From Sphingobacterium kitahiroshimense (GTDB taxonomy: Bacteria; Bacteroidota; Bacteroidia; Sphingobacteriales; Sphingobacteriaceae): a DNA stretch of 64,000 nt. The notes under the pieces are model-generated. The model made no database searches, was not told the origin of the DNA, and worked only from the letters and a program-made list of their open reading frames with translations. The first letter of the stretch is position 1, and every line of letters begins with the position of its first letter. Shown piece after piece: positions 6,129 to 52,345 of this stretch. Location of the stretch: contig NZ_JAOQNK010000001.1 in NCBI RefSeq assembly GCF_025961315.1, positions 5,084,001 through 5,148,000 of the forward strand, in the 5' to 3' direction. A program made the position numbers and the translations under genes.

Positions 6129-8330
6129 TTATGGAGTAGCTGTCAACAGGATGACTACGCTTCTTCTGTTATTTTCTAAAACAGGATTTAATCCGATATT
6201 CATTAAGAAGTCTCCTGATAGGATCAGGTTTTCAGCGATCGTGTTATCGTCTTTATTCAGGTTTATTTCTTGGACTTTGTACGATTTATTCGGATCTAAA
6301 CCTTGCCATTTGATCGGTTTAGTGATTTTAAAAACATGGTTATAAAAGGTGAGGTAATTGAACATCACTGCTTTACTTTTATCGCTGTTTATGTAGGCAA
6401 GACTAGCATAATTATTTTCTCTAGGATTAGAAAAGCGATAAAGATCACCATGCCACACGATATCTTTGATATTATCGTATGTTTTGACGGCTTTTTGTGC
6501 AAAGCTTAGTTCTACCGGACGCAGTTCTTCTAAATTTAGATCAAAACCCATTTTTCCCATCATGGCTACATCAATTTTAAATTTAAGATCTTGTTTGCCA
6601 AAAGTGGTGACATGGTTTGCACTTCCTATTGCGGGAAAGAACAGGGAGTTTTCATACTGCATAAAGATCCGATCGTAAGGATCCGTGTTGTCACTTGGCC
6701 AATATTCACTAAAGTAATTTAATGCACCGTAATCGATACGCCCACCACCACCAGAACAAAGCATCATAGGAAGTTTCGGATACTTGGCGCGGAATCGTTC
6801 TAGAATTTTGTATAAGCCCAGGGTGTAGTCAACATAGAAATTATTTTGGTCACTTTGGAAACTCGAGTATGCATTGTATATCACAGCATTACAGTCCCAT
6901 TTGATATAAGCTAAAGAAGGATTTTTCTGTAATAATTGATCAAGAGTGTTGAAGACAAAATCTTGTACTTCGGGATTGGATAAGTCCAGCACGAGCTGAT
7001 TTCTAAAATAATATTCAGGTCTGTTTGTCTGCTTCACCACCCAGTTTGGTTTCTTTTCATAAAGTTCACTTTTGGGACTTATCATCTCAGGTTCTACCCA
7101 GATACCAAATTTCACACCCACTTTATCGGCGTCTTTTGTGATTGAGGCAATTCCATTGGGTAGTTTTTTCTTATTCTCAGTCCAGTCTCCTAATGCAGAT
7201 GTGTCCGCATTTCGGGGATATTTATTTCCAAACCACCCATCATCTAACAGGAAAAGATCAACACCTAATTTTTTGGTGTTTTCAAGCAGATGAAAGATTT
7301 TCTTTTCATCAAAATCAAAATAGGTACTTTCCCAGTTGTTGAGCAAGGTGAGGCGTTCTCCGTTTCCATCAACCAGGCGGTTATTTTTTGCCCATCTATG
7401 AAAATTACGAGATCCTTCACCTACACCTTTCGTCGACAGCGTATAGGTGAATTTTGGGGTAGTGAAAGCTGTTTTAGGTTTTAAAGCATAATGCGATGCA
7501 TAATTATTAATGCCTGCAATAATTCTTAAATTATCCTGCGGATCTTTTTCAAAATCAATTCTGAAGTTGCCGCTCCAATCCAACCCACCTAGTAAGACTG
7601 TTCCCTGTGTTTCATTCCATGTCTTATCCATACCAATGGCAAAGTAAGAACTCATCAACAAGTTGGTCCGGGTACCCAGTTTACTGTCCAGTGTTTTGAT
7701 ACCATGGGTAAGTCTTTCTGTTTCTGGTTGCATCTCGGCTATCCAGTCACCGTGATAGCTACGTAAGTAAAAATCGTCTGATTTCAGGTTAAGATTAGCC
7801 GAAGCAAATTTGGTTAGTTTTACATTTTTTTTCTCTTCATGCCGAATAACCGTCCATTGTTCAAAGATGTTGTCCTGATAATTTGCCTGATAATGTAATT
7901 CGACATAGAAAGGGTACAGTTCATCTTTCATAAAAATGGTGACATGCTGTTTGCCAGCAATACTGATATCATTTTTATGGTCGATATATTTAAGATCTAA
8001 AGATTGATTACCGTCGGCATGCTCGACGCTTATAGCAGGTTCAAGTAAGTTTCGGGTGCCCGAAGCCGAATAAGCAGATTGATACATACTGGTGTAGTCA
8101 TGAGCCTGTTTATATTGCCTGGTTACTTGTGTATATTCATCGGCTTTTGACAGCTTATTTCCAAGGTAGACCATATTGACATCTTTGTTTTCTTCTACAT
8201 TCAGAACCAGTGCGATGCCAGCAGTTTCGAGGATGATATTTTTTGTTGTCTTGAGTTGCAATTGCGTTTGTTGTGCACTACTATCAATAAAAATAGGGAG
8301 CAACAAAAATAGTAGCATAAATTTTGTCAT
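6129..8330 (-). CDS. GH36 alpha-galactosidase, secreted
   Basis: 733 residues, the normal length for bacterial GH36. A signal peptide covers about residues 1-19 (MTKFMLLFLL...SSAQ). Next come an N-terminal beta-supersandwich (about 25-300) and the catalytic barrel with LLDDGWFG near 361-368. The nucleophile motif is KWDCN with Asp479, and the acid/base motif is WPSDNTDP with Asp547. Both catalytic carboxylates are present and spaced as in characterised GH36 enzymes. The enzyme should release alpha-1,6-linked galactose from raffinose-type oligosaccharides or galactomannan/xyloglucan side chains in the periplasm. It stands alone, with no transporter or regulator next to it. Confidence 0.92.
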   Translation of the reverse strand: MTKFMLLFLLLPIFIDSSAQQTQLQLKTTKNIILETAGIALVLNVEENKDVNMVYLGNKLSKADEYTQVTRQYKQAHDYTSMYQSAYSASGTRNLLEPAISVEHADGNQSLDLKYIDHKNDISIAGKQHVTIFMKDELYPFYVELHYQANYQDNIFEQWTVIRHEEKKNVKLTKFASANLNLKSDDFYLRSYHGDWIAEMQPETERLTHGIKTLDSKLGTRTNLLMSSYFAIGMDKTWNETQGTVLLGGLDWSGNFRIDFEKDPQDNLRIIAGINNYASHYALKPKTAFTTPKFTYTLSTKGVGEGSRNFHRWAKNNRLVDGNGERLTLLNNWESTYFDFDEKKIFHLLENTKKLGVDLFLLDDGWFGNKYPRNADTSALGDWTENKKKLPNGIASITKDADKVGVKFGIWVEPEMISPKSELYEKKPNWVVKQTNRPEYYFRNQLVLDLSNPEVQDFVFNTLDQLLQKNPSLAYIKWDCNAVIYNAYSSFQSDQNNFYVDYTLGLYKILERFRAKYPKLPMMLCSGGGGRIDYGALNYFSEYWPSDNTDPYDRIFMQYENSLFFPAIGSANHVTTFGKQDLKFKIDVAMMGKMGFDLNLEELRPVELSFAQKAVKTYDNIKDIVWHGDLYRFSNPRENNYASLAYINSDKSKAVMFNYLTFYNHVFKITKPIKWQGLDPNKSYKVQEINLNKDDNTIAENLILSGDFLMNIGLNPVLENNRRSVVILLTATP

Positions 8331-48442: not shown

Positions 48443-48540
48443 TAATTCTTCAGTATACTTGACCTCCTCCCAAAAAACTGGAGTATTTAAAAGTAGAGAA
48501 TTCGGGATAGAATTACTAATTTTAAATAGGAGGAAAAACG

Positions 48541-48807
48541 ATGAAAAGATCGAAATTTACCGAAGCTCAGATCGCCTTTGCGATCAAGCAGTCTGAGACG
48601 GGTACCCGGGTGGAGGAAGTCTGCCGTAAAATGGGTATCAGCGAGGCTACATTCTACAATTGGAAGAAAAAATATGGAGGTCTGGGTATCTCCGAACTTC
48701 GAAAGTTGCGCCAACTAGAAGAAGAAAATACTCAGCTGAAGAAACTTGTTGCCGATCTGAGTTTGGATAAGCAGATGTTGCAGGATGTGTTAAAAAAAAA
48801 GTATTGA
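48541..48807 (+). CDS. IS3-family OrfA (copy 1)
   Basis: 88 residues. A helix-turn-helix (about 8-45, FTEAQIAFAIKQ...ISEATFYNWKKKYGG) binds the element ends, and a leucine-zipper helix (about 54-84) drives oligomerisation. The gene ends in a run of nine A followed by G (48792-48801), a slippery sequence for -1 frameshifting into OrfB. The fused OrfAB is the active transposase in this family. The protein is identical in all three copies. Confidence 0.93.
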   Translation: MKRSKFTEAQIAFAIKQSETGTRVEEVCRKMGISEATFYNWKKKYGGLGISELRKLRQLEEENTQLKKLVADLSLDKQMLQDVLKKKY

Positions 48808-49661
48808 GACCCTCTCAGCGCAGAAAAATAGTGAAGGGATTAGTTGCAGACTATCGGGTTTCATTACGGAAAGCATGCGAGGTATCACTACTAAGCACTT
48901 CTGTTTGGTACTATAAAGCTCACCGCCGCGAAGATCTTCCATTACGCTTAAGGATACGTAATATAGCCGAAACACGGGTACGTTATGGACTCTGGCGTGT
49001 CTATATTCTTTTACGTCGTGAAGGCTGGTCTGACAACCATAAACGTGTCTATCGGATCTATAAAGAAGAAGGTCTGAACTTAAGGAGTAAACGTCCAAGG
49101 CGCTGCAGAGCAGCCTCTCATCGTTCTGAAAGACCTTCATTTTCCAATTTACATGACTGCTGGAGCATGGACTTCGTGGCAGACGCACTATTCGATGGGA
49201 AGAAAATCCGCTGCTTAACTATAGTGGATAATTATAGTCGCAAATGCATGGCAATCCATGTTGAACAGAGTATAAAAGGTTATCAGGTTGTAGAAGTACT
49301 GGAAGAACTGAGGTTGTTTAAAGGAGCTAAGCCAAAGAAAATTCAAGTGGATAATGGGTCTGAGTTTATATCAAAAGAAATGGACAGGTGGGCCTACGAA
49401 CAAAAAGTTGAACTCGTCTTTTCAAGACCTGGAAAACCAACAGATAATGCGTATATTGAGTCGTTCAACGGGAGCTTCCGTGACGAATGCTTAAACACCA
49501 ATTGGTTCCTTTCGTTGGGGGATGCTAAGCAGAAAATTGAAGACTGGAAAGACGAATATAACACCTTCAGACCCCATAGTTGTTTAGGGGATTTAACACC
49601 TGAAATGTTTATTGAAAATCAGGTCAAAATTGACCTCCTCCCAAAAAACTGGAGTATTTAA
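48804..49661 (+). CDS. IS3-family OrfB transposase (copy 1, last residues replaced)
   Basis: 285 residues counted from a TTG codon, but natural expression is by frameshift from OrfA. The rve integrase core has the catalytic DDE set: Asp123 (SMDFVAD), Asp183 (QVDNGSEF) and Glu219 (YIESFNG), with 35 residues between the last two. Copy 2 has inserted just before the C-terminus, so the native ending ANFSTFKYS is replaced by nine residues read from the copy 2 left end. The length stays at 285 by chance. The catalytic core is whole, so activity may survive. Confidence 0.88.
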   Translation: MRPSQRRKIVKGLVADYRVSLRKACEVSLLSTSVWYYKAHRREDLPLRLRIRNIAETRVRYGLWRVYILLRREGWSDNHKRVYRIYKEEGLNLRSKRPRRCRAASHRSERPSFSNLHDCWSMDFVADALFDGKKIRCLTIVDNYSRKCMAIHVEQSIKGYQVVEVLEELRLFKGAKPKKIQVDNGSEFISKEMDRWAYEQKVELVFSRPGKPTDNAYIESFNGSFRDECLNTNWFLSLGDAKQKIEDWKDEYNTFRPHSCLGDLTPEMFIENQVKIDLLPKNWSI

Positions 49662-49711
49662 AAGTAGAGAATTCGGGATAGAATTACTAATTTTAAATAG
49701 GAGGAAAAACG

Positions 49712-49978
49712 ATGAAAAGATCGAAATTTACCGAAGCTCAGATCGCCTTTGCGATCAAGCAGTCTGAGACGGGTACCCGGGTGGAGGAAGTCTGCCGTAA
49801 AATGGGTATCAGCGAGGCTACATTCTACAATTGGAAGAAAAAATATGGAGGTCTGGGTATCTCCGAACTTCGAAAGTTGCGCCAACTAGAAGAAGAAAAT
49901 ACTCAGCTGAAGAAACTTGTTGCCGATCTGAGTTTGGATAAGCAGATGTTGCAGGATGTGTTAAAAAAAAAGTATTGA
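49712..49978 (+). CDS. IS3-family OrfA (copy 2)
   Basis: 88 residues, identical to the OrfA of copies 1 and 3, with the same upstream GGAGG and the same A9G slippery run at its end. It is intact and could supply OrfA, but its OrfB partner is interrupted. Confidence 0.93.
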   Translation: MKRSKFTEAQIAFAIKQSETGTRVEEVCRKMGISEATFYNWKKKYGGLGISELRKLRQLEEENTQLKKLVADLSLDKQMLQDVLKKKY

Positions 49979-50568
49979 GACCCTCTCAGCGCAGAAAAAT
50001 AGTGAAGGGATTAGTTGCAGACTATCGGGTTTCATTACGGAAAGCATGCGAGGTATCACTACTAAGCACTTCTGTTTGGTACTATAAAGCTCACCGCCGC
50101 GAAGATCTTCCATTACGCTTAAGGATACGTAATATAGCCGAAACACGGGTACGTTATGGACTCTGGCGTGTCTATATTCTTTTACGTCGTGAAGGCTGGT
50201 CTGACAACCATAAACGTGTCTATCGGATCTATAAAGAAGAAGGTCTGAACTTAAGGAGTAAACGTCCAAGGCGCTGCAGAGCAGCCTCTCATCGTTCTGA
50301 AAGACCTTCATTTTCCAATTTACATGACTGCTGGAGCATGGACTTCGTGGCAGACGCACTATTCGATGGGAAGAAAATCCGCTGCTTAACTATAGTGGAT
50401 AATTATAGTCGCAAATGCATGGCAATCCATGTTGAACAGAGTATAAAAGGTTATCAGGTTGTAGAAGTACTGGAAGAACTGAGGTTGTTTAAAGGAGCTA
50501 AGCCAAAGAAAATTCAAGTGGATAATGGGTCTGAGTTTGACCTCCTCCCAAAAAACTGGAGTATTTAA
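49975..50568 (+). pseudogene. IS3-family OrfB (copy 2), 5' part, interrupted by copy 3
   Basis: Native sequence runs to Phe188, just after the second catalytic Asp183 (VDNGSEF). It then reads nine residues into the left end of copy 3 and stops. The third catalytic residue Glu219 is on the other side of copy 3 (51760-52054), so this protein cannot be an active transposase. Confidence 0.93.
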
Positions 50569-50618
50569 AAGTAGAGAATTCGGGATAGAATTACTAATTT
50601 TAAATAGGAGGAAAAACG

Positions 50619-50885
50619 ATGAAAAGATCGAAATTTACCGAAGCTCAGATCGCCTTTGCGATCAAGCAGTCTGAGACGGGTACCCGGGTGGAGGAAGTCT
50701 GCCGTAAAATGGGTATCAGCGAGGCTACATTCTACAATTGGAAGAAAAAATATGGAGGTCTGGGTATCTCCGAACTTCGAAAGTTGCGCCAACTAGAAGA
50801 AGAAAATACTCAGCTGAAGAAACTTGTTGCCGATCTGAGTTTGGATAAGCAGATGTTGCAGGATGTGTTAAAAAAAAAGTATTGA
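50619..50885 (+). CDS. IS3-family OrfA (copy 3)
   Basis: 88 residues, identical to the other copies. Slippery run of nine A plus G at 50870-50879; the zero frame stops at 50883-50885 and the -1 frame continues into OrfB without a stop. Confidence 0.95.
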   Translation: MKRSKFTEAQIAFAIKQSETGTRVEEVCRKMGISEATFYNWKKKYGGLGISELRKLRQLEEENTQLKKLVADLSLDKQMLQDVLKKKY

Positions 50886-51739
50886 GACCCTCTCAGCGCA
50901 GAAAAATAGTGAAGGGATTAGTTGCAGACTATCGGGTTTCATTACGGAAAGCATGCGAGGTATCACTACTAAGCACTTCTGTTTGGTACTATAAAGCTCA
51001 CCGCCGCGAAGATCTTCCATTACGCTTAAGGATACGTAATATAGCCGAAACACGGGTACGTTATGGACTCTGGCGTGTCTATATTCTTTTACGTCGTGAA
51101 GGCTGGTCTGACAACCATAAACGTGTCTATCGGATCTATAAAGAAGAAGGTCTGAACTTAAGGAGTAAACGTCCAAGGCGCTGCAGAGCAGCCTCTCATC
51201 GTTCTGAAAGACCTTCATTTTCCAATTTACATGACTGCTGGAGCATGGACTTCGTGGCAGACGCACTATTCGATGGGAAGAAAATCCGCTGCTTAACTAT
51301 AGTGGATAATTATAGTCGCAAATGCATGGCAATCCATGTTGAACAGAGTATAAAAGGTTATCAGGTTGTAGAAGTACTGGAAGAACTGAGGTTGTTTAAA
51401 GGAGCTAAGCCAAAGAAAATTCAAGTGGATAATGGGTCTGAGTTTATATCAAAAGAAATGGACAGGTGGGCCTACGAACAAAAAGTTGAACTCGTCTTTT
51501 CAAGACCTGGAAAACCAACAGATAATGCGTATATTGAGTCGTTCAACGGGAGCTTCCGTGACGAATGCTTAAACACCAATTGGTTCCTTTCGTTGGGGGA
51601 TGCTAAGCAGAAAATTGAAGACTGGAAAGACGAATATAACACCTTCAGACCCCATAGTTGTTTAGGGGATTTAACACCTGAAATGTTTATTGAAAATCAG
51701 GTCAAAATAGCAAATTTTTCTACTTTTAAATACTCCTGA
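50882..51739 (+). CDS. IS3-family OrfB transposase (copy 3, intact)
   Basis: 285 residues from the TTG; the real product should be the OrfAB fusion made by -1 frameshift at the A9G run. The DDE residues Asp123, Asp183 and Glu219 are present, with the native C-terminus ANFSTFKYS ending inside the right inverted repeat region. HTH_21 at the N-terminus and the rve core follow the standard IS3 order. This is the only copy with an undisturbed transposase. Confidence 0.95.
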   Translation: MRPSQRRKIVKGLVADYRVSLRKACEVSLLSTSVWYYKAHRREDLPLRLRIRNIAETRVRYGLWRVYILLRREGWSDNHKRVYRIYKEEGLNLRSKRPRRCRAASHRSERPSFSNLHDCWSMDFVADALFDGKKIRCLTIVDNYSRKCMAIHVEQSIKGYQVVEVLEELRLFKGAKPKKIQVDNGSEFISKEMDRWAYEQKVELVFSRPGKPTDNAYIESFNGSFRDECLNTNWFLSLGDAKQKIEDWKDEYNTFRPHSCLGDLTPEMFIENQVKIANFSTFKYS

Positions 51740-51759
51740 AATTGGGAGGAGGTCAAGTT

Positions 51760-52054
51760 TATATCAAAAGAAATGGACAGGTGGGCCTACGAACAAAAAG
51801 TTGAACTCGTCTTTTCAAGACCTGGAAAACCAACAGATAATGCGTATATTGAGTCGTTCAACGGGAGCTTCCGTGACGAATGCTTAAACACCAATTGGTT
51901 CCTTTCGTTGGGGGATGCTAAGCAGAAAATTGAAGACTGGAAAGACGAATATAACACCTTCAGACCCCATAGTTGTTTAGGGGATTTAACACCTGAAATG
52001 TTTATTGAAAATCAGGTCAAAATAGCAAATTTTTCTACTTTTAAATACTCCTGA
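51760..52054 (+). pseudogene. IS3-family OrfB (copy 2), 3' part
   Basis: Continues the copy 2 orfB after copy 3 and one AGTT duplication. It reads from Ile189 through Glu219 (YIESFNG) to the native end ANFSTFKYS. An ATG at 51773 would give a 93-residue peptide without the first two catalytic residues. Confidence 0.93.
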
Positions 52055-52070
52055 AATTGGGAGGAGGTCA

Positions 52071-52121
52071 AAATAGCAAATTTTTCTACTTTTAAATACT
52101 CCTGAAATTGGGAGGAGGTCA
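52071..52121 (+). mobile_element. Right-end remnant of copy 1
   Basis: The AAAT duplication followed by the last 47 bp of copy 1, ending GGGAGGAGGTCA. It follows directly on the right end of copy 2, giving right ends at 51755, 52070 and 52121. Confidence 0.93.
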
Positions 52122-52345
52122 TACTTTCTAACTCTATATTTAAGAATAGGATGATTTTTTGTCGGTTTTTTTTACCCCATTTGCACATAGCTGTAATCAA
52201 CTCAGACAATGTTTTACTGTAGTCCGTAAGTTTATAATCAACCGTAATGTTTTTTGTGTTACATACCGTATGACTTATAAGCCCATTAATTTACGATACC
52301 TGTAATTCTTTTAACATTATTATCGGACTAATGCCCGTTTCTCTA
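52122..52345 (-). pseudogene. Decayed HxlR-family regulator, C-terminal half
   Basis: Translated on the minus strand, one frame reads GISPIIMLKELQVS, then a stop (TAA at 52293-52291). It continues INGLISHT...ITVDYKLTDYSKTLSELI and AMCKWGKKNRQKII. This follows the intact HxlR protein at 5678-6052 across the recognition helix, the wing (ITV-Y-LT-Y-K) and the closing WG..-R-KI. The premature stop and further stops upstream show it is dead. Without the insertions the frame would continue to a stop at 48440-48438, so the outer insertion cut its last few codons. In 52346-52561 I see nothing that I can support. Confidence 0.7.

Follow-up and report, generated by a model that had tools for sequence, protein, structure and literature searches.

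A nest of three identical IS3-family insertion sequences in Sphingobacterium kitahiroshimense and self-insertion of the same element in a second species

Introduction

How does a single insertion sequence come to lie inside itself twice over, and does it seek out its own sequence in doing so? The question is raised by a locus of Sphingobacterium kitahiroshimense, situated in a stretch of 64,000 nucleotides (hereafter the window; contig NZ_JAOQNK010000001.1, positions 5,084,001 to 5,148,000), in which three copies of one element are inserted one within another. Nesting is nothing unusual among jumping genes, and as a record of insertion this nest is clean but ordinary: as in nested insertion sequences generally, one element sits within another and has its own target duplication. 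The difference is that all three belong to the same element, are identical, and are the only intact copies in their genome. We recognised no description of self-nesting of this element in the open-licence literature.

The explanation that we favour, with a probability of about 0.85, is serial self-insertion of one IS3-family element producing 4-bp duplications as the IS407 group does; this figure covers serial self-insertion, and any preference for a particular site is graded apart. What is new here is the single location of the intact copies, together with an internal insertion site shared with a second species.

Results and discussion

Structure of the nest

We unpicked the assembly sequence by script and found three copies of an element of 1218 bp, all in one orientation and mutually identical once separated (Table 1). 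Copy 2 is interrupted after its base 907 by copy 3, and copy 1 after its base 1171 by copy 2. From inside to outside the spans are 1218, 2440 and 3662 bp, bounded by exactly matched duplications of 4 bp (AGTT, AAAT and TACT). The initial annotation, made from the sequence of the window, had described this same arrangement, and its account holds: the coordinates are right to the base, unpicking reproduces the arithmetic of the three spans, both nested steps share one orientation, and the alignment that it proposed, of the two parts of copy 1 (48460-49630 plus 52075-52121) against copy 3, shows identity. Since identical sequences of 1.2 kb occur three times with matched duplications, chance is excluded, and the nest is confirmed as real, exact, recent and made of ordinary insertions. 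Its coding capacity has been affected unequally: copy 3 is intact, copy 1 has an orfB altered only in its last 9 residues, and the orfB of copy 2 lacks the catalytic glutamate.

Direct repeats of this length and identity are prone to recombination and difficult to assemble, which lends something to a reading of the locus as the product of recombination or gene conversion among copies, or as an assembly artefact. Three different duplications, each exactly matched and in nested order, are not what any of these processes would be expected to leave, and we hold this reading to be highly improbable.

Table 1. Features of the nest in window coordinates. The nest extends over 48460-52121, with left tips at 48460, 49631 and 50538 and right tips at 51755, 52070 and 52121.
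Feature	Coordinates	Strand	Basis or remark
Outer target duplication TACT, left	48456..48459		script unpicking
Copy 1, left part, element bases 1-1171	48460..49630	+	identical to copy 3
orfA of copy 1, 88 aa	48541..48807	+	Pfam HTH_Tnp_1 found on identical copy 3 orfA
orfB of copy 1	48804..49661	+	residues 1-276 match copy 3; final 9 come from read-through into copy 2 left tip
Internal AGGTCA, element bases 1162-1167	49621..49626	+	same letters as right tip end; 4 bp before copy 2
Middle target duplication AAAT, left	49627..49630		script unpicking
Copy 2, left part, bases 1-907	49631..50537	+	identical to other copies
orfA of copy 2	49712..49978	+	ORF
orfB of copy 2	49975..50568	+	cut after ~187 codons, upstream of catalytic Glu219
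Inner target duplication AGTT, left	50534..50537		script unpicking
Copy 3, uninterrupted element, 1218 bp	50538..51755	+	script unpicking
orfA of copy 3	50619..50885	+	HTH_Tnp_1, E 1e-24
orfB of copy 3	50882..51739	+	rve, rve_3; NF033516 233 bits; D123, D183, E219
Inner target duplication AGTT, right	51756..51759		script unpicking
Copy 2, right part, bases 908-1218	51760..52070	+	identical to other copies
Middle target duplication AAAT, right	52071..52074		script unpicking
Copy 1, right part, bases 1172-1218	52075..52121	+	identical to other copies
Outer target duplication TACT, right	52122..52125		script unpicking

Family placement

The product of orfA matches the Pfam domain HTH_Tnp_1 and that of orfB matches rve and rve_3. 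Against the NCBI model of IS3 transposases (NF033516, cut-off 160 bits), orfB scores above the threshold with 233 bits and orfA alone below it with 49.8. A DD(35)E triad is present in orfB, with 35 residues separating D183 from E219. The two reading frames overlap, orfB lying in the -1 frame relative to orfA, and the run of nine A residues at the overlap is of the slippery kind typical of the IS3 family, so that frameshifting is predicted. The tips have the form TG...CA with imperfect inverted repeats. We assign the element to the IS3 family on these sequence characters, and the placement made in the initial annotation is borne out by the transposase domains, the NF033516 match and the 4-bp duplications.

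In the available text of two papers, duplications of 4 bp are linked to the IS407 subgroup of the IS3 family (PMC10045372), and elements of the IS407 group are described with two overlapping ORFs and a frameshift motif (PMC3281130). Overlapping ORFs with the second in the -1 frame, the DD(35)E triad, the TG...CA tips and the length of the duplications all liken our element to the group so described, the 4-bp duplication being found in the three cases of the nest and once more, as GTTT, in a second genome (G051). The comparison differs in that the named relatives are distant. These relatives come from 50 spread matches among at least 5000 plasmid records, in entries giving no group membership, and their orfB identities within that sample range over 34-49% (ISRel21, 48.5%; ISKpn34, 46.6 and 45.7%; ISSen4, 44.9%; IS476, 39.2%; ISKpn20, 35.0%; ISXac2, 35.0 and 34.3%).

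Distribution of the element

The genome that holds the nest (G000) is a single contig of 6,291,775 bases. With all 32 candidates scored, it contains no intact copy outside the nest; the other matches are fragments of at most ~350 bp, the most similar reaching 95% over 131 bp and 86% over 235 bp. The whole-genome search suggested by the initial annotation thus places every intact copy of G000 at one spot, as the three nested ones. Two left-end fragments of G000, at 7797 and 8954, were considered as a further nest on account of their spacing and rejected: both are short remnants, and the stretch that separates them contains no element genes.

Matches to the element occur in at least 46 of 93 congeneric genomes (G000 included), a tally to be read as a lower bound since four candidates were scored per genome. 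Among the matches listed, the nearest full-length copies elsewhere are in G051, at 94% and 92% identity. Across the family, 39 of 399 genomes (again with G000) match at E 1e-30 or better, and no further nest was seen among the matches listed, a weak negative with two candidates scored per genome.

Order, age and origin of the insertions

Since a host must exist before its guest, copy 1 predates the insertion of copy 2, and copy 2 predates that of copy 3. The initial annotation had gone further and read the order of events as copy 1, then copy 2, then copy 3. The first part stands, each host being older than its guest; the complete order does not, because the insertion of copy 3 into copy 2 may have come first, with the resulting pair of 2440 bp entering copy 1 afterwards. 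Recency, also claimed there, is upheld by the identity of the three copies and the intact duplications. Among the 16 full-length relatives elsewhere for which both flanks could be compared, matching 4-bp flanks surround two, the inner G051 copy (GTTT) and the copy at locus L071 (GAGT). All five matched duplications, these two and those of the nest, end in T, which is possibly a weak target preference.

Under serial self-insertion, the first copy would have landed in the space separating two host genes, and the element would then twice have received a further copy. By the IS3-family route, a resident copy would at each step yield a circle with its ends joined through a short spacer, and the circle would integrate elsewhere, duplicating 4 bp; copies 2 and 3 would accordingly be of local origin. 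Intergenic sequence around the outer copy contains an inverted repeat, in whose loop the copy sits; once rejoined, this repeat folds at -16.1 kcal/mol. The outer copy is flanked by a thioesterase-like gene on one side and a cluster encoding a sigma factor, FecR, a TonB receptor and a SusD-like protein on the other.

The nest might instead have been built partly or wholly elsewhere, for instance on a plasmid since lost, and have moved in through its outer tips as a unit of 2440 or 3662 bp. With both outer tips intact, a unit of this kind could be mobile. The region, too, looks variable: in the same-species genome G004 both tested flanks gave only short, weak matches and no empty site was found, and only fragments of the element appeared among the 4 of 22 candidates scored. 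Nor was an empty site found in the 92 other congeneric genomes, five of which match 446-506 bp of the right flank only, at 69-70% (E up to 1e-20). Against an origin elsewhere, G000 contains no second nest or donor, the 1138 matches in plasmid records all fall at 60-80% identity with none above 80%, and phage records hold no near match to the nest. A scan of viral contigs for a tip-spacer-tip arrangement returned four loci, none of which contains the element. We consider import of a ready-made unit unlikely, and retain serial self-insertion in place.

Survey of self-insertions in the genus

Left ends of the element were enumerated in the 93 congeneric genomes with a 36-base pattern allowing up to 3 mismatches, and all 41 that were found, spread over 20 genomes, were inspected up to 400 bp upstream on both strands. 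In four cases the left end falls within a second copy of the element and shares its orientation: the two of the nest at bases 907 and 1171, and two in G051 at bases 1126 and 1170 (hence 2 of the 38 left ends outside G000). The G051 case at 1126 has GTTT on both sides, and its outer fragment is 97.7% identical to the inner copy. The case at 1170 is a decayed pair whose right end is missing, so that its duplication cannot be checked; although first met in a motif-directed search, it is recovered by the enumeration of left ends, which uses no motif.

Copy 2 of G000 and one copy of G051 thus occupy the same internal site within 1 bp, in two species and in the same orientation. We judge the two events independent, because the loci differ and the inserted copies have diverged.

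Right ends number 30, in 18 genomes, and for 4 of the 30 more element sequence is found in the 400 bp that follow. Three of these are the nests already counted, and the fourth is a remnant in G019 (L049, 1450-1841) in which a left tip and a right end stand inverted to each other with 5 bases between, which may represent a fifth self-insertion, in the opposite orientation. The tip-like ends at this G019 locus, a run of 51 bp, were considered as a nest of the 1171 type and rejected for their inverted arrangement. For two right-end fragments in G047 (L105), the structure of a nest is not demonstrable.

Does the element target itself?

The initial annotation had contrasted the nest with the target immunity or self-avoidance that insertion sequences often show. 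That appeal is not borne out: the one paper found that names both immunity and the IS3 family defines immunity, in the part available, in general terms and does not ascribe it to IS3 elements. The element itself, with two self-insertions in the nest, does not avoid DNA already holding a copy.

Uniform insertion would give both nested steps in G000 with a chance of ~7.5e-8, before any bias of survival. It was the nest that prompted the survey, so the two G000 cases cannot count as independent evidence for a preference. For the 38 left ends outside G000, a uniform model assuming that 7 kb of each 5.3-Mb genome is element DNA expects 0.05 self-insertions, against 2 seen (P ~0.001). If harmless sites survive tenfold better, the probability of two or more becomes ~0.09, and that for the 10 left ends of G051 alone 0.008. 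Self-targeting by the element is thus suggestive only, and much of the excess could be explained by better survival of harmless insertions.

The element ends at its right tip in AGGTCA, and the same hexamer is found at one other place within it, at 1162-1167. IS911 inserts beside ends resembling inverted repeats, and tip-directed targeting has been seen in the laboratory. In the portions of the literature available, circles of IS911 have 3-4 bp between their ends (PMC2909936), the IS2 circle junction has one base pair (PMC3299598), and IS911 titles cited in PMC2909936 speak of targeted insertion and inverted repeats. Our element resembles IS911 in that copy 2 of G000 and the G051 copy entered 4 and 3 bp from the internal right-tip hexamer, where tip, spacer and tip would imitate a circle junction; it differs in that only 2 of its 41 left ends fit.

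These two, both self-insertions (at 1170 and 1171), are the only left ends with a complete AGGTCA 3-5 bp upstream, and the upstream control positions gave no complete match. Matches of four in six bases were seen at 3 of the 41, the 907 site among them, versus 3.7 expected. The 1126 site has no tip-like neighbour, and left ends outside element copies show no preference for AGGTCA. We therefore reject the idea that insertions in general seek this hexamer, since only 2 of 41 left ends fit.

One alternative within serial self-insertion is that targeting played no part: insertions would be random, most others would be lost for the harm they do, and those landing where they do none, as within the element, would persist. 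Insertion into the element presumably costs the host little, the outer copy occupies the loop of an intergenic inverted repeat, and two of the four self-insertion sites are no more tip-like than chance. What it accommodates poorly are the 1170/1171 insertions, same in orientation, found in two species and judged independent, and the small uniform chance of the two steps in G000. We regard untargeted insertion as plausible, at somewhat short of an even chance. That the element prefers a site like its right tip, at which two tips 3-4 bp apart would mimic a circle junction, is the least certain part of our explanation, and we put it at about even odds. A bolder version, in which the internal AGGTCA followed by AAAT mimics the right tip and draws new copies into the element's own 3' end in one orientation, forming a sink that would spare host genes, limit spread and break or alter older copies, seems to us doubtful.

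What could make the locus matter is that the event recurred: in two species this element was entered in the same orientation, at internal positions no more than 1 bp apart. Should that be confirmed, it would suggest that tip-directed self-targeting, of the kind seen with IS911 in the laboratory, also operates in nature, where it would hold the copies of an element with 4-bp duplications together at one locus.

Minor observations on relatives

Several relatives of the element carry inserts of ~47-51 bases, at base 337 (L063 and L064) and at base 903 (L063, L064, L042, L043 and L055); the loci concerned are L063 2415-3753, L064 2053-3423 and, near 1435, L042, L043 and L055. Shorter inserts occur at bases 95 and 711-716. 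The 903 insert, AATTGC..GCAATCATGAAC..TGAAT, is found in diverged copies at the exact site where copy 3 inserted (duplication 904-907). Sequences like it also lie outside the element in other genomes, and it may belong to a small repeat family; a new intragenic element was considered and rejected, given these outside occurrences and the broken reading frames of the carrier copies.

A repeat like GTAGCTAGYTAGGGTRAGATTACA begins ~27 bases past the right tip in L033 (G047), L037 (G079) and L062 (G051). With up to 2 mismatches, it is present in 27 of the 93 genomes, once in G000 and far from the nest. Finally, the element copy at L033, on its left side, and the two element tips at L104 (1700-3100) adjoin sequence coding for a DYGARFYD-like motif, which we take to resemble that of Rhs proteins.
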